From contig NZ_CP047941.1 in the NCBI RefSeq assembly GCF_014279815.1, positions 2,294,001-2,358,000 on the forward strand: a DNA stretch of 64,000 nt, read 5' to 3'. This DNA comes from Synechococcus sp. NOUM97013. GTDB taxonomy: Bacteria > Cyanobacteriota > Cyanobacteriia > PCC-6307 > Cyanobiaceae. Below are positions 2,912-26,046 of this stretch, piece after piece. The first letter of the stretch is position 1; each line of letters opens with the position of its first letter. Position numbers and translations under genes: made by a program. The notes under the pieces are model-generated. The model did not search any database. It saw only the letters and a program-made list of their open reading frames with translations, and had not been told where the DNA came from.

Positions 2912-3795
2912 ACCACCACCTCCCGGGGGGCGATCAACGCCAGATCCAGCAGCGTCATCTCGGCATCGGAGTGCAGGACACCCAGCTGAGGGTCGTGCTC
3001 AGGAGCCCACTGCCCCTGCCATTGGGGGGACGCGCTCACCCACCACCCCATCCGCTCCTGCGGCTGGCGCCAGGCCTGGACCAGCTCCAGGACCTCCCGC
3101 CGCAGCTCTGGGAGTTCGACAGCTTCGAGCGCGAGATCCACATCCGGACAGCCCCCATCCAGCAACAACAGCCGCCAGCGACCGGCGTGTTCCACCAGCC
3201 AGACCAGTCGCTCTTCGCGATCCCCCCAGGCGCTGGACAGACCCCGGAACGCCGCTGACAGCAACCATTCCGCACGACGCACGGACAGATCAGCGGCGGC
3301 CAGGGTCTCGATCCACGACTGCAGCAACAGACGATCCGTGCCCATCACAAGCGTTCGGTCGTCGTGGGCCAACGGCAGCAGATCGAGATAGCTCTCCTGC
3401 AGCGTCAGCGACCAGCCGAGATCAGGCTGCAACGCCCTCAGAGCGTCCAGATCCCAGGCCTGGCCAGGCTCCGCCACCTGAACCACCCGCCACTGACAGC
3501 TGGGGAGCGGCAACAACAACTCCACGCTGACTCTGGCCGGGATCTGCCCTCGTTCCAGCAGCAGATCCGCAATCGTTTCCCCTAACGCCTGGCGGTCGAG
3601 GGGTTGCCCCATGCGGCAGAGATCCGGAGGCAAGGCCAGCGAAGCGATCTGCCGCTCCCCCTGTGAGGACAAGGCGAGGTGCAGGCTGTCATCCTCCGGA
3701 GCCAGCACCACATGGCTGGGCTCCAGCAACCCCTGCAGCTGCACCATCCAGCCATCGAGGGCGGGGAAACGATCACGCAGGTCAGCCAGCACCAC
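2908..3795 (-). CDS. pilM: Type IV pilus assembly ATPase-like protein PilM (divergent)
   Basis: A 295-residue soluble protein directly upstream of pilN, in the position of the actin-like protein PilM. Sequence similarity to PilM is weak by eye: there are alternating beta/alpha segments such as VVLAPEDDSLHLALSS and LVMGTDRLLLQSWIETL, but the nucleotide-binding motifs are hard to see, so the name rests largely on synteny. PilM is cytoplasmic and binds the PilN N-terminus. The start is GTG at 3795, with a second GTG one codon later. The gene begins 48 bases after pyrD, so the pil genes may be transcribed with rnhA and pyrD. Confidence 0.7.
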   Translation of the reverse strand: MVLADLRDRFPALDGWMVQLQGLLEPSHVVLAPEDDSLHLALSSQGERQIASLALPPDLCRMGQPLDRQALGETIADLLLERGQIPARVSVELLLPLPSCQWRVVQVAEPGQAWDLDALRALQPDLGWSLTLQESYLDLLPLAHDDRTLVMGTDRLLLQSWIETLAAADLSVRRAEWLLSAAFRGLSSAWGDREERLVWLVEHAGRWRLLLLDGGCPDVDLALEAVELPELRREVLELVQAWRQPQERMGWWVSASPQWQGQWAPEHDPQLGVLHSDAEMTLLDLALIAPREVVV

Positions 3796-3843
3796 GATGC
3801 AACTCCGAGCCGGTGAACCCGTGACTTGATCGCAGCGTATCGA

Positions 3844-5022
3844 TTACTGCCAGGGCGCGCCGCTACCCACCGCCTCACGAATGTTGCGGAAGCCATGGCG
3901 ATCCAACTGCTCCAGCAAACCTTCCAGCACCCGCGGCACCAAATCCGGGCCTTCAAAGATCCAGCCGGTGTAGAGCTGTACCAGAGATGCACCCGCAGCG
4001 ATCCGCTCCCAGGCGGCCTCCGGCGTGCTGATTCCACCGACACCCACCAGGGGCAAGGCAGGCCCGGCAGTAGCACGCAGGCGCCGCAACACCTCGAGGG
4101 CCCGTTGCCGGAGTGGATCACCACTGAGACCACCCGCCTCTTCGCGCAGGGTTCGCCCGGTCTGGCTGATCACCCGACGCTCCAGCCCAAGGCGATCAAG
4201 GCTGGTATTCACGGCGATCACGCCGGCCAAGCCTTCCTCATAGGCCAAGCGCGCGATGCCATCGATCGCGTCATCTTCCAGATCCGGCGCGATTTTCACC
4301 AACAGCGGAGGGCAGCCCGGCAGCCGGCGCAACCGTTCCACCAAGCGGCGTAGCTGGGTGGCGTCCTGCAGATCCCGAAGCCCCGGGGTGTTCGGTGAAC
4401 TGACATTGATCACCGCATAGTCGGCCAGGGGAGCCAGCAGCTCCAGCGATGAGGCGTAGTCATCGGGCGCCAGCTCCAGCGGCGTGACTTTGGATTTGCC
4501 CAGATTGATGCCGAGCACCGCTGGCCGCTGGCCGCGCGGCGGCAGCGCCTGACGCTCCAACGTGCGAAGCATCACTTCCGCACCGTTGTTGTTGAAGCCC
4601 ATCCGGTTGAGCGCCGCCCGCTCATCGGCCAGGCGGAATAGCCGCGGCCGCGGATTGCCGGGCTGGGCATGCCAGGTGACGGTGCCCACCTCAGCAAAGC
4701 CAAATCCGAAACGATCCCAGACCCCCGCTGCAACACCGTTCTTGTCAAATCCGGCGGCCAAACCGACGGGATTGCTGAAGCGACAACCGAACAGCACCTG
4801 CTCAAGACGCAGATCACGGCGTTGGAGCTCCGCACCAACACCATCCAAGACACCCGACAGCCCAGGCCACTGCCGGCGAAGACTGAGCTGAGCGAGGGCC
4901 TGCAGCGCTGCACGGCTGAGCTGCTCGGCATCCACACCTTCATCCTTGGCCAGCACGGGACCAAGCCAGCGCCGATAAAAACCTGCGGTGCTCATGACCG
5001 CGGAGGCTGACGGCTCAGCCAT
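3844..5022 (-). CDS. pyrD: Dihydroorotate dehydrogenase (quinone), class 2
   Basis: This 392-residue enzyme oxidises dihydroorotate to orotate in pyrimidine synthesis, passing electrons to membrane quinone through FMN. Visible motifs are [35 protein letters not shown] (with the class 2 catalytic serine), [17 protein letters not shown] and the FMN-phosphate loop VGVGGI followed by LVQLYTG. The N-terminal helical extension (about residues 12-60) is the membrane-binding part of class 2 enzymes. I chose the ATG at 5022 because GAGGAA lies just upstream; it overlaps the end of rnhA by eight bases. An ATG at 4995 also exists but has no visible ribosome site. Confidence 0.95.
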
Positions 5023-17276: not shown

Positions 17277-17948
17277 TCAAGGGGTTGGTGGCGCAATCGG
17301 CGGAGCAAGAAAGTTCTGCGAATCAAACGTGGGTTGCGGTGTGCTGACGGGTTCGGACACGGGCAACACCTCTGATGGCCCTGAGTCCGCTTGAACCGGA
17401 GCCTCCATCACAGGAGTCGTCGGGAAGCCAGCATCTGTCTCCTGCACTGCAGGTTCGAGCGTTGGAGAGAGCGGAGTGCCTGGATCGGGCGCCATTGTTT
17501 CCGCCGCCGCCGGCAAGGTCACAGATGCTGGATCCTGCAGCTGCTCTGCTGTAACCGGCAGCACAGGGGCCGGCTGGGGGCTCAAATCGAGAGCTGGCTC
17601 ACGCAGAGCCGCCTGCTGCTGTGTCTCGCGTTGTTCAGCTTCTGCAGCAATCGCCTCGGCCTCACCATTGATCTGGCGCTTCTCTGCATCCCGGGCTTCC
17701 TTGGCCGTCACATCACCCATCAAGGGCTGATCGGCCCCATACAGACGCCGCAGGGAATCGAGGGACTGCCCGGGAAAACTACTTTGTTGAAAGGATGCTT
17801 GCTGCGTGCCCTGCTGACCTTGGCGCAGCATCACGATGCGCTGCGTGATGCCATAGCCCAAAGCGAAGCAAGAGCCGGCCACCAGAGGTCCCACCCAGAA
17901 CCGAGGGCGCTTGGGCCGCTTCTTTTCAGCGTTTCTGGTGGTACTCAT
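17277..17948 (-). CDS. Single-pass membrane protein of unknown function
   Basis: The 223-residue protein has a basic N-terminus (KKRPKRPR), one membrane segment (about 18-36, FWVGPLVAGSCFALGYGIT) and a long Gln/Pro/Glu/Thr-rich periplasmic tail of low complexity. I do not recognise a domain. The GC-rich base composition matches the housekeeping block and changes sharply just upstream of this gene, where the AT-rich lanthipeptide region begins. Confidence 0.68.
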   Translation of the reverse strand: MSTTRNAEKKRPKRPRFWVGPLVAGSCFALGYGITQRIVMLRQGQQGTQQASFQQSSFPGQSLDSLRRLYGADQPLMGDVTAKEARDAEKRQINGEAEAIAAEAEQRETQQQAALREPALDLSPQPAPVLPVTAEQLQDPASVTLPAAAETMAPDPGTPLSPTLEPAVQETDAGFPTTPVMEAPVQADSGPSEVLPVSEPVSTPQPTFDSQNFLAPPIAPPTP

Positions 17949-18410
17949 ATCAGATCCCGATTGATGAACACCGAGCCGTCGAACGCCCCCATTCTCACCC
18001 CGAATTAGGCTTAGTGCCGCTCAACGTCATAGATCGCGAGTAGCGACAGGCAACCTCTGTGCTGTCACGACCAGCAACGAGACGCCAACTACCCACTCGG
18101 TAAAAGCGAGATCCGGACAGAAACGAGTAAAACCAAAGCTGAGAACCGTTCGGCCAAAAACAAGTATTCAACCCTGACGCTCAATTTACATTATGAATCG
18201 ACTACATATAACACGAACAATAATCGTCAAACCTTTAGTATCTCGGAGCTATGCGCAACCAGGCAGGCTACGAATCAAGGCAAGATTAAAAATAGAATAA
18301 ACCCATAAGTGTTAAAACCAATATAAAGAAAGCATTAACCCCAAAAGCCAAGGAAAACACACTGCGTAGCATGAAATTGCACAGCACAACTACTTACACG
18401 AGCGCTTGCC
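17949..18410. other. Intergenic stretch, left edge of the AT-rich insert
   Basis: About 460 bases without a credible gene. The sequence changes from GC-rich to AT-rich within roughly its first 100 bases. It must hold the promoter of the precursor gene, but I could not fix a convincing -35/-10 pair. I see no tRNA, insertion-sequence end or direct repeat that would explain the insertion. Confidence 0.5.
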
Positions 18411-19022
18411 ATGAGTGGTTCACCGCAAGATTTTCTCCAAGCCGTATGGAGCAGCGATGCTTCAACCCAAGAATTTGCAAATAATCCAAAATCGTTTATG
18501 GAACGCTTTGGATTCAGCTACGGAGAGAACGTGAGGGTCATTCCTCATTTTGACAATGAAACCAGCGTAAATTTAGTAGTCCCCGAAAGCACTCCCGAGG
18601 TCGAAACTGCAGCTCAAGGCAATGCCGACCCAGCAATCAATACTTTAGTCAAAGCCAGCAAGGATGAAGCTCTTAAAAGAGAATTACTCGAAAACGGAAA
18701 AACAACTTTAGCCAATAATGGAGTACCGGTCATTTCAGGGATCAATTACCAAGTATTTGCAAACACCGCGACAGAGATGCATGTCGTAATTCCGACCAAT
18801 CCAGCGATAGCGCAAGCAAATGCAGAACTGGAATTGGCAGCTGGAGGATTGAGCCAAGGCGCCAAGTGTGGAGTCGGCGCTGGAGGTACTACGGTGGCTT
18901 GCGGCGCAGTTGCAATTGGCCTTGGTATCTTTAGCACAGGAGCCACAGCTGCAATAGCCGGCGGCACATCTGCCGTAGCAGCTGGTGGAACTGGCATAGG
19001 CTCAGCTGTTGCCAGCGGCTGA
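18411..19022 (+). CDS. Lanthipeptide precursor with duplicated NHLP leader
   Basis: The 203-residue peptide has two copies of a nitrile-hydratase-like (NHLP) leader: residues ~6-60 ending in SVNLVVPES and ~75-131 ending in EMHVVIPTN. Both carry an Asp-start helix, an N-P/G-K turn and a valine-rich strand. The cleavage signal ELAAGG ends at residue 146, leaving a 57-residue core. The core has Cys153 and Cys164, Ser148 and Thr160/161 at good spacing for two thioether rings, and about eight further Ser/Thr. It is otherwise Gly/Ala/Val/Ile, with a single charged residue (Lys152). It is followed by a strong terminator and the lanthionine synthetase gene. The class II assignment comes from that neighbour. 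Confidence 0.85.
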   Translation: MSGSPQDFLQAVWSSDASTQEFANNPKSFMERFGFSYGENVRVIPHFDNETSVNLVVPESTPEVETAAQGNADPAINTLVKASKDEALKRELLENGKTTLANNGVPVISGINYQVFANTATEMHVVIPTNPAIAQANAELELAAGGLSQGAKCGVGAGGTTVACGAVAIGLGIFSTGATAAIAGGTSAVAAGGTGIGSAVASG

Positions 19023-19087
19023 ATCCAGAGCCGAAAGAAATACTTTTCCAAAGACGCATCAACCTAAACACAAAACAAACAAACCAT

Positions 19088-19136
19088 GTTGCCGAAGACT
19101 CTTTTAACAAGAGGCAATACTTCGGCAACATTTTTT
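19088..19136 (+). terminator. Strong intrinsic terminator after the precursor gene
   Basis: GTTGCCGAAG (19088-19097) pairs exactly with CTTCGGCAAC (19120-19129), extended inside by CTCTT/AAGAG, followed by ATTTTTT. It should uncouple precursor transcription from lanM, allowing excess precursor. Confidence 0.88.
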
Positions 19137-19604
19137 GTTTAAGCTTCAAGAAAAAAGCGAACCAATAAAAAAGGTCGGATCAACGTGCAATAGCAAAGGC
19201 AGGTCCAGCAAAACCTTCAATGCCAATTATTCATTCCTTGGGGTCGCTGAATCATCTCGGCAGAGTCAAGCGAATCAAAGGCACACCTTCAACTTATAAA
19301 ACTCCAAACAAGACAGCCAAGGAGAGCAGCCATCACACTCACAGCTATCAGCCCTTGAATCCCAAAACATTCAGCTTAAAACCCGACAATAGTACACAAA
19401 ATTAAACTAGCTGCCCACACTAAAACAACCAGCTGGCACGATCAACCAGGTACTGACAATATCCTCCAATCAGAGCATCTACAAACCAGCAAATTGTCAC
19501 AAGTTGACTTTAAATTGCGCGACAAATGCTGCAAATACCGCTCAACCCCAAACATGACAAATTCATTTTGCGAACTATAATAATAATGCCAGCATAAGCA
19601 AGAC
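19137..19604. other. Intergenic stretch upstream of lanM
   Basis: About 470 AT-rich bases. A 61-codon frame at 19220-19405 has a Lys/Ser/Thr/Asn-rich product with no recognisable leader or GG motif, and I do not count it as a gene. The lanM promoter must lie here; TATAATAATAATG-like sequence near 19575-19588 is suggestive of a -10 region but also of chance AT-richness. Confidence 0.45.
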
Positions 19605-22600
19605 TTGATCGAAGAGATTGTTGAAATCGCCCAAAGGGCATCAAATATCCGTGAGCGCATTGCGCATTATCGGTCACGAAAGCATTGCGCATATGACCCA
19701 CAAGGCAAATACTATTCAGATGAATTCATAAAAAACCTTACTCCTGAGACTCAGAATGAAAACCTGTTGAGATCTCGACTTCAATATCTAGCCATTCATA
19801 AAGATGAGCTTGTTGAGGCCTTTAGTTGCATGCCAATTTACTCATCATTCACCCTGCCAAAATGGGCACAAACGCTTTTAGAAATAATGAGTACTTATGA
19901 ATTAAATGAATGCAAGCCAAAAGAAATTAGACATCAAACAGAAGACGGATTCTTGCTGTTTCCAAAACTACTGGCCCCATTCACAAACCACTTCGACAAA
20001 AACTTAGAAAAATTACTGGCGGTGTACCCCTCAATATTTGAATTACAAGCAATCCTGGATTTAAAAACTGAACTTCTCATTGAACTATCAGAGGTGACAG
20101 CGAGGGTCGTCAGCACAGAACTGTCAATGAAAAAATATTTTTACGAGAAAAATAAACCAACACGAGAACCCAAAGAAAGATATCAAGACTACATGGATCA
20201 ATTTGTCGACAATCCGCAGCAACACATCAGGCTTTTTCTACGCTATCCCGTTTTAGCGCGTTTACTATGCATGATATGTTCACAAACGCTGGAAAATCTT
20301 ACAACATTTGCACATCGCTTTGAAAGCGATCGCTCTGAGATCGCAAAATACTTTAAACCAGAAAAAACTTATGAAAAACCAGATCTTTCAATCATCAGGC
20401 TGTCATTTACCCATTCCGACCCTCACAACCAAGGCCAAAAAGTCTGGAAGGTCACAACCAATCATTCCTTCTCATTAGCGTACAAGCCAAGAAGCTTTGA
20501 TATTGACAAAGCTTACGCCGACATCATTAAGTGGTATAACAACGGAAGCCAACATCAATCTTTAAAAACAGCTCCTTTTATCTCAAGAAAACATTATGGG
20601 TGGACATTATGGATTGACACGAACAGAAGCGTAGCGAGTCGGAAAGAAGCCAGTGATTACTTTCAACGACTTGGCGCACATTGTGCGATACTGTTTTTGC
20701 TTAACGCGACAGATTTTCACGAAGAAAACTTCATCATCCAACAATCCGATCCAATTCCAGTCGACCTAGAGACAATTGGATCAAGTTGCATGTCGTATTA
20801 TACGCCAGAGAATACTTCTGACCTGCCATTTTATCTTGAGTCGTTATCACTTTCAATCCAAGCACTAGGCGCTTACCCACGTTGGCTTCAAAATAAAAGC
20901 GCAGGGGCACCGGCCATAGCACTCGGGGGCTCAGCCGGTCGTCAATCCATTGACAACAATACGCTTGTCATTCGTTGGAATCAGGTTGGAACTGCGGATT
21001 TAAACTATCAATATGTGGAAGGACCTGTTGGTTGGATATCACTGTCTCCTCAAATCAACGGCGAGGAGCAAAAATTAGTTCACTATATTGAAGACTATTT
21101 GGCAGGCTTTGAAGATGCATATTTACATTGTTTAGAGAACAGATCTTTTCTCTTGAAGTCAAAAGAGTCCCCATTTTTGGCATTCGACGGACTCAACACA
21201 CGCGTTGTGCTTCGCAATACACAAGAGTATTTTGATCTCCTACAGCCAGCAACCTCACACGACATCCTTACAAGTGGCCTGGCTTATTGTACTTTCCTAG
21301 AAAAGATATGCCACAGACAACTGGGCAATTATGCACATAATCTCTATTTCACTTCAGAATCAGAAGCAAATTCACTATTTTCCCGAGATATTCCGTACTT
21401 TTCAGGAAGAATTGGAAGGACAACTGCTGACGGTCAAACGGAAAAACCCTACGGAAGCAACGATCCCAAAGCATTCACCTATAAACTTAAAATTGCCAGT
21501 CAAGCCAAGCTTGAAGACTATAAACAGCAGATCAAATCGATATTTGGTTCCTACCAACAATCTATCGAACCGCCTGCGCTATCCGTTAAAGCAACACAAG
21601 CGCCACAAACGAACAAAGACATATTAATCAAAGGAGTGCGCAATCTCACAGATCTGTTTCTCAACTCAATGGTGACCATTGCTGGCTTCAATGGTTGGTA
21701 TAGCGTTTACTCTTACAAGCAAAATCCAACTATATCCTACAGATTTCCACTCCCCTGGACGAGTGCGGGTACTGCAGGAACATCCATATTTTTAAACAAT
21801 GCAGCAACTATGCTTAAAGATTCGAGTTTATCTACATTAGCCGAAAAATTATCAGTGAACTCATTGAGTGAGCTCATAAAGAACTTTGGATTAGCCGATC
21901 AATATTCAATTGCACTTTGCAAGGGGCTTGAAGGAATTGCATCACCAATTTATGCCTGTTTGTGCGCGCATCGGCTCTCACAATCCGAAAGAGCTTTGGA
22001 GCACGCGGCAGATTTTATTGAAACGATGGGCACAAACTATAAAAACATAAAATTGAGAGATTTATCTCTTATCTCAGGAGCCTCCGCAGACTTAATTGTA
22101 TTAAGTGAACTATATCAAAGGACTCAACGACCTCTTTTAAAAGAGATTATCAATGTTTTGGCCATGAAACTTGTAATGGCACTTGAATCTCTGAATTCTT
22201 TTTTAAACACAAATCCACAACTACAACCCATAGAGCCAGGAGTTGCCCATGGCATCTTTGGAATTTTATTGGCAATCGATAGGGCTAATGATGTTGAACC
22301 GAAAGACATTTATCGATCAGTCATTCTTCACTATGGATACAAGGAAATGAAACGGTACCTTGATCAACCCAACGAACGTGATGAGCGCTTTACAGGCTGG
22401 TGTCGTGGACCCGCTGGTGAAGGCCTTGCAATTCTTGATAACCAACTCCTGCTCAATTCTCACCTATCAATGATGACAAATGATTATATTGACACAACAA
22501 TAGAGCTCACGAAAAGAAGTCTCGGCCAAGATTTTGCCCATCTTTGCTGTGGGGAGTCTGGTCGTTTGATTTTTTTAGCAACAGCTGGTGAACAGCTAAA

Positions 22601-22802
22601 TCGCCCTGAATTATCAGATTTAGCTGTCAACCAATCAGTTAATCTGCTAAGGCAATATGAGGATACAGGATATCTGATGATGCAATCTATTACATCGAGT
22701 TGCCTAGTTCCTGGATTACTAGATGGACATGCCGGCATTGGCCTTGCCTTATTAAGTGTTCTTCACCCAAAATCAACATCCAATTATTTATGCCTGCGAT
22801 GA
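19605..22802 (+). CDS. lanM: Class II lanthipeptide synthetase LanM, ProcM-like
   Basis: This 1065-residue two-domain enzyme dehydrates Ser/Thr in a precursor and joins them to Cys. The dehydratase half keeps the kinase-like site: D272 and H274 in SDPHNQGQ, K294 in LAYKPRS, D370-H372-N375 in ATDFHEENF and D387 in PVDLET. The cyclase half keeps H882 (GVAHGIFGI) and zinc ligands C933 (GWCRGPAG) and C981-C982 (HLCCGESG). The CCG in place of the usual CHG is the feature of ProcM-type enzymes that process many prochlorosins. The only N-terminal start in frame is TTG 19605, 19 bases after an in-frame stop. The stop overlaps the next gene (ATGA). Confidence 0.93.
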   Translation: MIEEIVEIAQRASNIRERIAHYRSRKHCAYDPQGKYYSDEFIKNLTPETQNENLLRSRLQYLAIHKDELVEAFSCMPIYSSFTLPKWAQTLLEIMSTYELNECKPKEIRHQTEDGFLLFPKLLAPFTNHFDKNLEKLLAVYPSIFELQAILDLKTELLIELSEVTARVVSTELSMKKYFYEKNKPTREPKERYQDYMDQFVDNPQQHIRLFLRYPVLARLLCMICSQTLENLTTFAHRFESDRSEIAKYFKPEKTYEKPDLSIIRLSFTHSDPHNQGQKVWKVTTNHSFSLAYKPRSFDIDKAYADIIKWYNNGSQHQSLKTAPFISRKHYGWTLWIDTNRSVASRKEASDYFQRLGAHCAILFLLNATDFHEENFIIQQSDPIPVDLETIGSSCMSYYTPENTSDLPFYLESLSLSIQALGAYPRWLQNKSAGAPAIALGGSAGRQSIDNNTLVIRWNQVGTADLNYQYVEGPVGWISLSPQINGEEQKLVHYIEDYLAGFEDAYLHCLENRSFLLKSKESPFLAFDGLNTRVVLRNTQEYFDLLQPATSHDILTSGLAYCTFLEKICHRQLGNYAHNLYFTSESEANSLFSRDIPYFSGRIGRTTADGQTEKPYGSNDPKAFTYKLKIASQAKLEDYKQQIKSIFGSYQQSIEPPALSVKATQAPQTNKDILIKGVRNLTDLFLNSMVTIAGFNGWYSVYSYKQNPTISYRFPLPWTSAGTAGTSIFLNNAATMLKDSSLSTLAEKLSVNSLSELIKNFGLADQYSIALCKGLEGIASPIYACLCAHRLSQSERALEHAADFIETMGTNYKNIKLRDLSLISGASADLIVLSELYQRTQRPLLKEIINVLAMKLVMALESLNSFLNTNPQLQPIEPGVAHGIFGILLAIDRANDVEPKDIYRSVILHYGYKEMKRYLDQPNERDERFTGWCRGPAGEGLAILDNQLLLNSHLSMMTNDYIDTTIELTKRSLGQDFAHLCCGESGRLIFLATAGEQLNRPELSDLAVNQSVNLLRQYEDTGYLMMQSITSSCLVPGLLDGHAGIGLALLSVLHPKSTSNYLCLR

Positions 22803-23887
22803 ACCCTTTTTCAAACATCGATCGTGTAGAAACAATCTCGCCAAAAAACTTTTTTGATGATTATATTCTTCCCGCAAGGCCTTTAATCATCGAAGATAGT
22901 TTATGCGGTAGAGCTCTGCATTCGTTCGCCCACAAAGCGAGGCTTCCAAAACGCTACCTCCATAGCTTGATACCACTTTCTTATGGGTTTGGAAATTTTT
23001 TAGATCAGCAAAATAGAGCCTTAACGGAAGAAGAAAGTGCGGCAGTAAAGTCGCCTCCTTGCGTCACCTTGTCTGATTATTTAAATGAATATCAAACCGA
23101 AAAATTTTCGGGACTCTATTGCAATGAGGTGGCTTTGCCGAAAGCGATTCTCTCTGACTACTCGAGACCAAAACTGACGGAACTTGGCTTGCTTGATGAT
23201 GTTGATTATCGATTCTTTGTTGGAGGAGAAAAAAACTATGCACATCTACATTTCGACGGCGACCTAAGACATGTTCTTTTTCATCAATTGCTAGGGGAGA
23301 AGACAATTGTTTTAATCCCCATATCTTCTACTGATAAACTTTTACCAGTAGCGCATTGGTCAGGGCACTGTCTTCAAAATTTTTCGAATCAAGAGCTGAA
23401 TGATTTTGTTCACTATGTAGGTGGAAGCTGTATCAAACTTTCTGCAGGTGAGACACTTTATTTCCCGGCTGGAATTTGGCATTTTGTTCGCTACGAGTCG
23501 TTATCCATCTCCATCGCATGCCGATTTGGACGAACCCAAAAAATTAAGTTTCTTGGTAACAACGTCCACAAAAATGACGAGTTTCTGAAAATATTCTCAC
23601 AGTTATCCGCAAGTCAATATTCGAACTCAAATGAGTTTTTCGAGGTGGTAACTGACAACTTAATTAAATCGTATTCACTATTTTCGGCGAGCTCGTCGGA
23701 AAAGGTGAGTCAGATGAATCAAGCTTACAGATCAATCGCTGCACAATACGGCAGAAGCAAAAGTGAATTATTCTTGCCCTTTTCCAGCGAATTTTCTTTG
23801 GCAATACAATCTTTATACGAGAGCAAATACGCCCAACACGTCGATCAAATGCTTCGAGAAAAGATGGGATGGATTAGTGCTTCGTAA
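22799..23887 (+). CDS. Cupin/JmjC-type Fe(II)/2-oxoglutarate hydroxylase, coupled to lanM
   Basis: The 362-residue protein fits the cupin_8/JmjC-like hydroxylases: H151 and D153 (HLHFDGD) and H228 (YFPAGIWHFVRY) are the expected iron ligands, and K168 in GEKTIVLIPI matches the 2-oxoglutarate-binding strand. Family members hydroxylate protein side chains. The ATG at 22799 overlaps the lanM TGA, giving strict coupling; an ATG at 22790 is the alternative. I infer that it is a tailoring enzyme of the lanthipeptide. The C-terminal third (about 250-362) is helical and unassigned. Base composition is AT-rich like lanM. Confidence 0.83.
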   Translation: MNPFSNIDRVETISPKNFFDDYILPARPLIIEDSLCGRALHSFAHKARLPKRYLHSLIPLSYGFGNFLDQQNRALTEEESAAVKSPPCVTLSDYLNEYQTEKFSGLYCNEVALPKAILSDYSRPKLTELGLLDDVDYRFFVGGEKNYAHLHFDGDLRHVLFHQLLGEKTIVLIPISSTDKLLPVAHWSGHCLQNFSNQELNDFVHYVGGSCIKLSAGETLYFPAGIWHFVRYESLSISIACRFGRTQKIKFLGNNVHKNDEFLKIFSQLSASQYSNSNEFFEVVTDNLIKSYSLFSASSSEKVSQMNQAYRSIAAQYGRSKSELFLPFSSEFSLAIQSLYESKYAQHVDQMLREKMGWISAS

Positions 23888-23966
23888 AAGGCTTTTAGAG
23901 AAGCATGAAATATGGATATCCAACGTAAATGCACTTTTGATGCAAACCTCAAATCTAGAATTAAAA

Positions 23967-23997
23967 TCTTGAAAAAACGCGAAATTCAAGACTTTTT
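23967..23997 (+). terminator. Weak terminator-like hairpin at the end of the lanthipeptide operon
   Basis: TCTTGAA (23967-23973) pairs with TTCAAGA (23985-23991), followed by CTTTTTC. The stem is short and AT-rich, so termination would be modest. Confidence 0.4.
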
Positions 23998-24104
23998 CAC
24001 TGAGTGAGCTATCGCTGAAGCAAAACGCTTTAATTACGCAGTCGCCAATCATGAGTTTTGACTTTTGCCCATGGAAACGGAGACATCCCACCTCCAACAG
24101 ATTT

Positions 24105-25355
24105 CTAGGTCGTGTAATCGGCGTTGATTCGCACGTATTGATCCGATAGATCACAGCCCCAGCCGGATCCAGAGCCTGGCCCCGTGCCGACATTCAGACG
24201 AATGACGACGACGTCATCGTCCAAATAACGCCCACAAGCCCGCTCGCTGAGATAGATGGAGGCCGCCGAGCGATCGAAAGCGAGGGGCTGACCATCGGCC
24301 ATCAGCTGGTGGTCACCGATCCAGAGGGCAACAGCGTCAGGGTCAAACAACACACCGGAACGCCCCGCCGCCGCAACAATCCGACCCCAGTTGGGGTCTC
24401 TGCCATGCACGGCGGTCTTGACCAGCGAGGACCCGCAGACCGTGCGAGCCATGTGCACAGCGTCCTGGTCGCATGAAGCTCCCTGCACCTGCACCTCGAT
24501 CAGACAGGTGGCTCCCTCCCCATCGCGGGCGATAGCACGCGCCAGATGTTGCGCCACCCGGGTCAAACCCTCCTCTAACGCTGCATAAGCCGTGTCTGGA
24601 AGCGCTTCACCAGCGGCAAAGGCCAACACCGTGTCATTGGTGCTGGTGTCGCCATCGACCGTGATGGCATTAAACGATCGCCGTACAGCTCGCTGCACCA
24701 TTCCCTGCCACACATCAGCGGGGACCCCGGCATCACAGGTGAGGTAGCCCAGCATGGTGGCCATGTCGGGATGGATCATCCCCGATCCTTTGGCCATGCC
24801 CCCAAGCCGGACCCTACGCCCAGCCAGGGTGGCTTCCAAAGCGATCTGCTTCTCCACCAGATCGGTGGTGAGGATGGCACCAGCAGCGGCAGCTCCACCC
24901 TCGGGATCCAAAGCGTCCACGAGCGGGTCTAAGCCACCAAGCAACACCTCCATCGGGATCGGCACGCCGATCACACCTGTGGAGCAGATCAGCACCTGAT
25001 CAGCGTCGACACCCAAACGATCTGCCAGGGCCTGCGTCGCACGCTGACTGTCAATCAAGCCGCGATCACCCGTGCAGGCATTCGCCTGTCCGGAATTGAT
25101 CAGCACCGCTCGGGCCTGGCCTCCAGTGGCGAGCAAACGTTCAGCGCAAAGATCCACGCAAGCGGCACGCACCACCGAGGTGGTGAAGGTGCCGGCACAG
25201 ACCGCACCCTCTGGCGCCAGAACAAGTGCAAGATCCGGCTTACCCGACGCCTTCAGCCCGGCCGTGATTCCGGCACCAAGAAAGCCGGTGGGAGCGGTGA
25301 CGCCTCCCTCCACCACCATCCACTCAGAGGAAGCCCTGCTGTTGTCGGCAACCAC
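24105..25355 (-). CDS. argJ: Glutamate N-acetyltransferase / N-acetylglutamate synthase ArgJ
   Basis: ArgJ transfers acetyl from N-acetylornithine to glutamate in arginine synthesis and is made as a self-cleaving precursor. Visible are GGVTAPTGFLGAGI, FTTSVVRAACVDLC, VLINSGQANACTG, STGVIGVPIPM, GGMAKGSGMIHPDMATML (cleavage before the Thr), ITVDGDTSTNDT, CGSSLVKTAVHGRDPNWGRI and the C-terminal Y-V-R-I-N-A-D-Y-T-T. The start is uncertain: GTG 25355 gives 416 residues with 11 before the conserved Trp, ATG 25319 is shorter, and ATG 25397 would overlap the divergent coaE start. Base composition returns here to GC-rich. Confidence 0.95.
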   Translation of the reverse strand: MVADNSRASSEWMVVEGGVTAPTGFLGAGITAGLKASGKPDLALVLAPEGAVCAGTFTTSVVRAACVDLCAERLLATGGQARAVLINSGQANACTGDRGLIDSQRATQALADRLGVDADQVLICSTGVIGVPIPMEVLLGGLDPLVDALDPEGGAAAAGAILTTDLVEKQIALEATLAGRRVRLGGMAKGSGMIHPDMATMLGYLTCDAGVPADVWQGMVQRAVRRSFNAITVDGDTSTNDTVLAFAAGEALPDTAYAALEEGLTRVAQHLARAIARDGEGATCLIEVQVQGASCDQDAVHMARTVCGSSLVKTAVHGRDPNWGRIVAAAGRSGVLFDPDAVALWIGDHQLMADGQPLAFDRSAASIYLSERACGRYLDDDVVVIRLNVGTGPGSGSGWGCDLSDQYVRINADYTT

Positions 25356-25395
25356 GGATCCACGCGAGACACTGGTGTCATCCTGCCGCCGCGTC

Positions 25396-26046
25396 ATGTC
25401 TCGCCAACGCCGCATCGGCCTGACCGGTGGAATCGCCTCCGGTAAAAGCAGTGTGAGCCGCTGGCTGGCGCAGCAAAACGTGCCTGTCTTGGACGCCGAC
25501 CAGTACGCCCATGACGTCATTGCCCCGGGGGAGCCCGCCTGGCAGGCCGTGATCGATCGCTACGGCAGCGCAGTCCTGCATCCAGGATCTGACCCGACAC
25601 AACCTGCTTTAAACCGTGCAGCACTCGGCAGCATCGTCTTTGCGGATGCTCAGGAGCGGCGCTGGCTGGAGGGGCTGATTCACCCCGTCGTACGAGATCG
25701 CTTCGAACACGAACTGTTGAAACTCAGCAATGAGCCGGTTGTCGTGCTGATGATCCCACTTCTGTTTGAAACAGGGATGGCATCAATCTGCAGTGAGGTG
25801 TGGGTTGTGAACTGTTCACTCGAGCAACAACGTCAAAGACTCATGGCACGCAACGCCTTGAGTGCACAAGCAGCCGATCAGCGAATCCAAGCCCAGTGGC
25901 CCCTGACCCGCAAATGTGAACTCGCTGATGCAGTAATCAACAACAGCGGCCCCCCACAACGCTGGCGAGCTCAGATTCGTGGGCTTTTAACGCCATCAAC
26001 ACAGCAAGCTTCCGCATCAACTGACGCGATGAATGGCCATCAATAG
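25396..26046 (+). CDS. coaE: Dephospho-CoA kinase
   Basis: The 216-residue kinase phosphorylates dephospho-CoA in the last step of CoA synthesis. It starts MSRQRRIGLTGGIASGKSSV with the P-loop GGIASGKS, then DADQYAHDVIAPG, LNRAALGSIVFAD, HPVVRDRFE, VLMIPLLFETGM and a lid-type segment with SAQAADQRIQAQWP. It is divergent from argJ, with start codons only about 40 bases apart if argJ begins at 25355. Confidence 0.95.
   Translation: MSRQRRIGLTGGIASGKSSVSRWLAQQNVPVLDADQYAHDVIAPGEPAWQAVIDRYGSAVLHPGSDPTQPALNRAALGSIVFADAQERRWLEGLIHPVVRDRFEHELLKLSNEPVVVLMIPLLFETGMASICSEVWVVNCSLEQQRQRLMARNALSAQAADQRIQAQWPLTRKCELADAVINNSGPPQRWRAQIRGLLTPSTQQASASTDAMNGHQ

Follow-up and report, generated by a model that had tools for sequence, protein, structure and literature searches.

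We analysed a window of 64,000 nucleotides (the whole stretch considered here; NZ_CP047941.1, positions 2,294,001-2,358,000) from the complete 2.55-Mb chromosome of the picocyanobacterium Synechococcus sp. NOUM97013. Within it, an island holds three genes, all on the plus strand, that encode the precursor of a ribosomally synthesized and post-translationally modified peptide (RiPP), a class II lanthipeptide synthetase (LanM) and a Cupin_8/JmjC-type Fe(II)/2-oxoglutarate (2OG) oxygenase (Table 1). An earlier note, made from the sequence alone, had described this region as a class II lanthipeptide locus with a coupled Fe(II)/2OG-type oxygenase, and the domains, the active sites and the ATGA overlap of the two enzyme genes bear that description out.

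The three genes and their products

The 203-residue precursor matches the NHLP leader family TIGR03793 in two stretches (65 bits, cut-off 50.9, E 4e-18), that is, as two leaders in tandem, and a Gly-Gly site at residues 145-146 closes the second copy. These features make it an NHLP/proteusin-type precursor. The earlier note had recognized both the leader type and the Gly-Gly site; what it overlooked was the tandem doubling of the leader. No Nif11 match, the leader type of the prochlorosin system, is listed for the window precursor, and no NHLP leader other than those of this precursor was found in the Synechococcus sp. NOUM97013 genome. The core that follows the leaders is hydrophobic, with Lys152 as its sole charged residue. 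Downstream of the precursor gene lies a strong hairpin (Table 1). An attenuator in this position is usual in lanthipeptide operons, where it keeps the precursor above the enzyme.

LanM begins with a TTG codon that occupies the same aligned position as the start of the LanM of L048, a related cyanobacterial locus described below. As expected of a class II enzyme, it unites a DUF4135 domain (E 2e-81) and a LANC_like domain (E 6e-32) in one protein. It scores 473.6 bits against TIGR03897 (cut-off 304, E 1e-141) and matches LicM2 and CylM, two proteins of known structure. In a four-sequence alignment, the dehydratase residues S271, D272, H274, K294, D370, H372, N375, D387 and E389 and the cyclase residues H882, C933, C981 and C982 are all invariant, C981 and C982 lying within a CCG motif. 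All the dehydratase and cyclase residues checked are therefore present, and the enzyme is intact, as had been claimed.

The oxygenase gene is tied to lanM by a shared ATGA, in which its ATG (22799-22801) overlaps the lanM TGA (22800-22802). A profile search against solved structures matched the protein to JMJD5, FIH and TYW5. Its AlphaFold2 model (predicted local distance difference score, pLDDT, 79; predicted template-modelling score, pTM, 0.81) resembles JMJD5 most closely (Z 23.8 across about 220 residues; Foldseek E 3e-15), followed by JMJD7 (Z 19.4) and FIH (Z 16.9). H151-x-D153, H228 and K168 do not vary among the 16 rows of an alignment and supply the HxD...H triad and the predicted 2OG-binding lysine that characterize the double-stranded β-helix of JmjC-type Fe(II)/2OG oxygenases. 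The overlap and the JMJD5-like model both agree with the note's cupin/JmjC-like protein.

Among 300 genomes of the family, the oxygenase is confined to the window locus; among 291 genomes of the class, any match occurs in 7 and a strong one in 3. A search of genome contigs with the single oxygenase sequence as query found nothing, and an alignment-based scan of 84,980 species genomes returned 22 relatives. On plasmids, the oxygenase search retrieved Cupin_8 proteins that were linked to non-ribosomal peptide synthetases (NRPS) or unrelated, and viral contigs contained no relative of either the window oxygenase or the window LanM.

Table 1. Features of the locus, given in window positions (genome positions in brackets).
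Feature	Position	Strand	Basis or properties
Conserved left-flank gene	17277-17948	-	Island border
Acquired AT-rich island	17943..24108	.	GC contrast and empty site in closest relative
RiPP precursor, 203 aa: two tandem NHLP leaders and 57-aa Gly/Ala-rich core	18411..19022	+	TIGR03793
NHLP leader copy 1	18435..18596 (2312435-2312596)	+	NHLP leader search of genome
NHLP leader copy 2, ending at Gly145-Gly146	18645..18848 (2312645-2312848)	+	NHLP leader search
Core LSQGAKCGVGAGGTTVACGAVAIGLGIFSTGATAAIAGGTSAVAAGGTGIGSAVASG	18849..19019	+	2 Cys, 11 Ser/Thr, one Lys; grand average of hydropathy (GRAVY) 1.0
Strong hairpin then T-run between precursor and lanM; terminator or attenuator	19077..19140	+	-25.3 kcal/mol, z -6.75
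LanM, class II lanthipeptide synthetase, 1065 aa, TTG start	19605..22802	+	TIGR03897, DUF4135, LANC_like
LanM zinc ligand Cys933	22401..22403	+	Four-sequence alignment
LanM zinc ligands Cys981-Cys982 (CCG motif)	22545..22550	+	Four-sequence alignment
Cupin_8/JmjC-type Fe(II)/2OG oxygenase, 362 aa	22799..23887	+	Cupin_8 E 9e-11
Iron-binding His151-x-Asp153	23249..23257	+	16-row alignment
Lys168, predicted 2OG-binding, aligned with JMJD5 Lys	23300..23302	+	Profile match and 16-row alignment
Distal iron-binding His228	23480..23482	+	16-row alignment
argJ, right flank of island	24105-25520	-	Island border

LanM descent and the host's own prochlorosin-type system

Phylogenetic analysis groups the LanMs of the window, L048 and L060 (a Burkholderiales locus) in one clade (support 98/95). 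The 23 Cyanobiaceae LanMs, among them the host's own second copy at 780 kb, fall elsewhere. This clade holds without the Firmicutes, Streptomyces and haloarchaeal sequences, and the grouping also survives the removal of L060. In the tree, the window LanM thus lies outside the ProcM clade, a placement for which the evidence is good but not final. Across the dehydratase part, it shares about 22-26% identity with Cyanobiaceae LanMs (tblastn) and about 24% with the host's ProcM-like LanM; its best plasmid match is 25% identical. One survey takes the CCG zinc motif as a mark of ProcM (PMC10783134), but haloarchaeal LanMs have the motif too, and because of this it cannot decide ProcM membership.

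The host's ProcM-like LanM (L046, genome 768000-787900) is accompanied by TolC-, HlyD- and C39-transporter-like genes, and two ABC transporter genes are counted at this locus. About 20 Nif11-type leaders or precursors are scattered over the genome, which encodes C39 transporters at 775 and 1526 kb. Together, the separate LanM clade, the precursor with tandem NHLP rather than Nif11 leaders, and the host's own ProcM-like LanM with its Nif11 set mark the window locus, on these comparisons, as a second lanthipeptide system that is unrelated to the prochlorosin-type one. The tie to ProcM and the prochlorosins implied by the earlier note falls away on the same grounds.

LanM-oxygenase pairs in other genomes

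The note had proposed searching other genomes for LanM genes accompanied by this oxygenase, and the search, once run, recovered the pair in the L048 and L060 operons. L048, from the cyanobacterial genome G452, contains the strongest match to the oxygenase in the class. In order, its operon encodes a tandem-NHLP precursor of 222 residues, a radical SAM epimerase of the PoyD type, LanM, a 2OG enzyme weakly resembling WelO5, an Asp/Asn-hydroxylase-like (AspH-like) protein, a GNAT, a paralogue of the 2OG enzyme, a second GNAT and the cupin. In L060, from a draft genome, genes for a radical SAM C-methyltransferase, LanM, a 2OG-like enzyme, a GNAT and the cupin stand in a row, and the cupin start overlaps the upstream stop by the same 4 bp as in the window. 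The L060 genome encodes two tandem-NHLP precursors, one of which has a core resembling those of L048 and the window. Indeed, a tandem NHLP leader followed by a GLSxG...Gly/Ala-rich core is common to the window, L048 and the L060 genome. Judged by gene content, the LanM-oxygenase pairing is conserved.

The cores of the two GNAT-bearing relatives have a C-terminal Lys-Cys tail (SKC, KGKC) that is missing from the window core. Likewise, the window island contains no GNAT and hence not the Lys- or Orn-acylating GNAT of the selidamides; L048 and L060 do encode GNATs. Because the tail-less window core comes without a GNAT, this pattern suggests, without proving it, that the Lys-Cys tail serves the acyltransferase and that the oxygenase acts on what all three systems share. 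We also considered the window core as a truncated version of an L048-type core and ruled this out, as the bases past its stop codon do not encode a Lys-Cys tail.

Other members of the cupin subfamily sit in NRPS-type clusters. Because the subfamily recurs in LanM, YcaO-type and NRPS-type clusters, it is, as far as gene neighbourhoods tell, repeatedly linked to peptide natural products. Five Nostocaceae loci (L053, L061, L062, L063 and L064) place it beside a YcaO-type gene. L064, the most fully profiled of them, has three further neighbours: TfuA, a weak Nif11-like precursor and a protein with a lantibiotic-dehydratase C-domain. This gene content points to an oxidized thioamide- or azole-type RiPP. 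L061 (Nostoc) carries a second, JmjC_2-type oxygenase (3713-4939) a few genes from its Cupin_8 gene. L050 (1-1288), from a cyanobacterial draft genome in which a LanM was not found, holds the last part of an NHLP leader and its short core without Cys, next to a cupin that lacks its N-terminus; GNAT and 2OG-like genes are close by. It is possibly a decayed relative of the cluster. Plasmid relatives of the L060 GNAT (Mesorhizobium, Microcoleus) lie in loci with GNAT and epimerase or with GNAT alone; LanM and cupin are absent from these loci.

Doubled NHLP leaders were also encountered in other settings. L169 (10053-13443) and L170 (3571-7043) are arrays of five doubled-NHLP-leader precursors whose cores are short and varied. 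A C39 transporter and an HlyD-like gene lie near them, and no LanM does. In L171 (3150-7298), downstream of a doubled-NHLP precursor with a Gly/Ala-rich, Cys-free core come an alcohol-dehydrogenase-like gene and, at the contig end, a LanM split across two frames. On present sequences, leader doubling recurs in cyanobacteria and extends beyond the window's group. We set aside an NHLP match on contig 11 of G452 that, judged by eye from its neighbouring genes, is probably a true nitrile hydratase.

The island and its arrival in the genome

The GC content of the island is about 41% (38-50% inside), against about 62% (60-64%) in both flanks. In G141, the closest relative (argJ 92% identical), the island is absent and only 93 bp separate the left-flank gene from argJ; in six of the eight relatives examined, the flanking genes lie about 64-113 bp apart. 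Comparison of these genomes establishes insertion at a site that is empty in relatives. It also supports horizontal acquisition of the three-gene set as a unit foreign to the host, much as the note had deduced from the AT-rich composition and the sharp borders. Neither a recombinase, a tRNA nor a clear target-site repeat was found at the ends of the window's own island, and promoter-like sites are no commoner than in shuffled sequence, so none is claimed.

The other two of the eight relatives (G193 and G246, of the same genus) carry unrelated inserts at the same site (loci L106 and L104). One insert has a tyrosine recombinase and a ParB/methyltransferase-like gene and the other a resolvase-like gene; these recombinases were named by eye from their sequences. 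Because two other genomes hold different inserts there, the gap between the left-flank gene and argJ (17948-24105) looks like an insertion hotspot.

A proposed pathway and its alternatives

We consider it likely that the three genes form a compact, acquired class II lanthipeptide (lanthi-proteusin) pathway, in which the precursor is ringed by LanM and then hydroxylated by the JmjC-type oxygenase. The evidence for the pathway as a whole consists of sequence and predicted structure; the gene content, the intact active sites, the ATGA coupling, the tandem leader, the core similarity and a descent separate from ProcM can be read from the former directly. In this pathway, the tandem NHLP leader would recruit LanM, which would dehydrate Ser and Thr residues of the core and close thioether rings on its two cysteines, Ser148-Cys153 and Thr161-Cys164 being the simplest predicted rings. 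The translationally coupled oxygenase would then hydroxylate at least one residue of that precursor with Fe(II), O2 and 2OG. Lys152, the only lysine of the core, is a candidate site by comparison with the Lys/Orn modifications of related pathways, because enzymes of the same logic (PhaI, PbsQ and BipG) oxidize Orn; by analogy with PoyI, hydrophobic residues would be equally possible. After modification, the leader would be cut at Gly145-Gly146, and the peptide may be exported in trans by a C39 transporter, encoded either at 1526 kb or at 775 kb, where a LanT-like gene neighbours the ProcM-like LanM. The product would likely be a hydrophobic, Gly/Ala-rich peptide with membrane activity.

Several observations weigh against this pathway. 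The window LanM is very divergent, with 27-28% identity to its nearest relative and a very long branch, so that few sequences underlie its placement in the tree. LanM and oxygenase occur together in three genomes only, and the precursors of one of these, L060, lie on a separate contig of the draft assembly. The cupin tree resolves no LanM-specific clade, and the island contains no transporter or protease gene. Finally, the core is devoid of Asn, Asp, Arg and His, the residues that many JmjC protein hydroxylases oxidize.

The missing transporter, the additional tailoring genes of L048 and L060 and the lack of the C-terminal Lys-Cys tail seen in GNAT-bearing clusters would also fit a stripped remnant of a larger GNAT-containing (selidamide-like) cluster, whose epimerase, GNAT, other 2OG enzymes and transporter did not arrive with the set; it may then be silent or make only a partly modified, unexported peptide. 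We regard this as unlikely: the three reading frames are intact, as are their active sites, the strong hairpin follows the precursor gene, C39 transporters are available elsewhere in the genome, and the joint loss of GNAT and Lys-Cys tail resembles streamlining more than decay.

The other two alternatives concern the partners of the enzymes. That the locus is an offshoot of the prochlorosin system, with a second promiscuous ProcM-like LanM modifying dispersed Nif11 precursors in trans, would account for the ProcM-like CCG motif and draws on the roughly 20 Nif11 precursors of the genome. It is nonetheless very improbable given a LanM that falls outside the ProcM clade, is so distant from the host's ProcM-like copy and has a linked NHLP precursor of its own with a long core, in a host that already possesses, at 780 kb, a ProcM-like LanM and accompanying transporters. 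Improbable, too, is that the JmjC-type protein leaves the peptide alone and instead hydroxylates a host protein or acts as a regulator or immunity factor. Its closest solved relatives do hydroxylate cellular proteins, and many bacterial Cupin_8 proteins are uncharacterized, but a host target is hard to reconcile with a gene that overlaps the lanM stop, occurs only at this locus among the family genomes and belongs to a subfamily that recurs in RiPP and NRPS clusters.

Returning to the lanthi-proteusin pathway, we see an even balance for and against a broader proposal, namely that the window locus is the minimal three-gene form of an undescribed lanthi-proteusin family across Cyanobacteria and Pseudomonadota, characterized by a doubled NHLP leader, a GLSxG-opening, Gly/Ala-rich, membrane-spanning core, a distinct LanM clade and a core-oxidizing JmjC-type oxygenase. 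If the pathway operates as proposed, class II lanthipeptide rings and JmjC-type side-chain oxidation, so far reported apart, would be joined in one three-gene pathway small enough for a single co-expression experiment. Marine Synechococcus-type cyanobacteria would then be shown to take up entire peptide pathways in addition to the prochlorosins, at an insertion site that can be reused. It also raises the question of why the NHLP leader is doubled.

Comparison with known systems

Fe/2OG hydroxylases next to LanM (DurX, DivX and PhaI, the last beside LanM and an NHLP precursor; PMC9505594) and cupin/JmjC ornithine hydroxylases in RiPP pathways (PbsQ and BipG; PMC12257519, PMC12707348) are already known, separately. 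Our search of the open-access literature (subscription papers lay outside it) turned up neither a LanM pathway with a JmjC-type enzyme nor a lanthipeptide with a doubled NHLP leader. For a related Burkholderiales family, fused pairs are mentioned by Haft et al. (PMC2887384).

Prochlorosins (ProcM, SyncM) share with the window locus a class II LanM with the CCG motif, a marine picocyanobacterial host and leader cleavage at a Gly-Gly site, and differ in their Nif11 leaders, many dispersed precursors and LanM clade. In cinnamycin-type pathways, CinX, DurX and DivX are likewise Fe(II)/2OG hydroxylases dedicated to a class II lanthipeptide (PMC10373908, PMC9505594). They β-hydroxylate Asp in a short core, whereas the window core contains no Asp and its precursor is NHLP-type. 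PbsQ and BipG of the biphenomycin-type pathways are JmjC/cupin-fold Fe(II)/2OG enzymes that act on a RiPP precursor, and the start codon of pbsQ overlaps the upstream gene, as that of the window oxygenase gene does (PMC12257519, PMC12707348). Compared by description only, those pathways differ in not being lanthipeptide pathways and in that the enzymes act on arginase-made ornithine.

The polytheonamide-type proteusins (Poy) resemble the window locus in their NHLP leader, long hydrophobic core, LanM-type dehydration and 2OG hydroxylase, and L048 shares a PoyD-type epimerase with them as well. The window locus has neither epimerase nor methyltransferases and possesses an intact cyclase domain and core Cys. 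With phaeornamide (pha) and the selidamides, it shares an NHLP-family precursor, a LanM, a hydroxylase (PhaI) that modifies a residue of the precursor and an origin in a marine bacterium (PMC9505594). Again compared by description, the pha pathway includes an arginase and a GNAT and hydroxylates ornithine, whereas the window locus comprises precursor, LanM and oxygenase, without arginase, GNAT or transporter.

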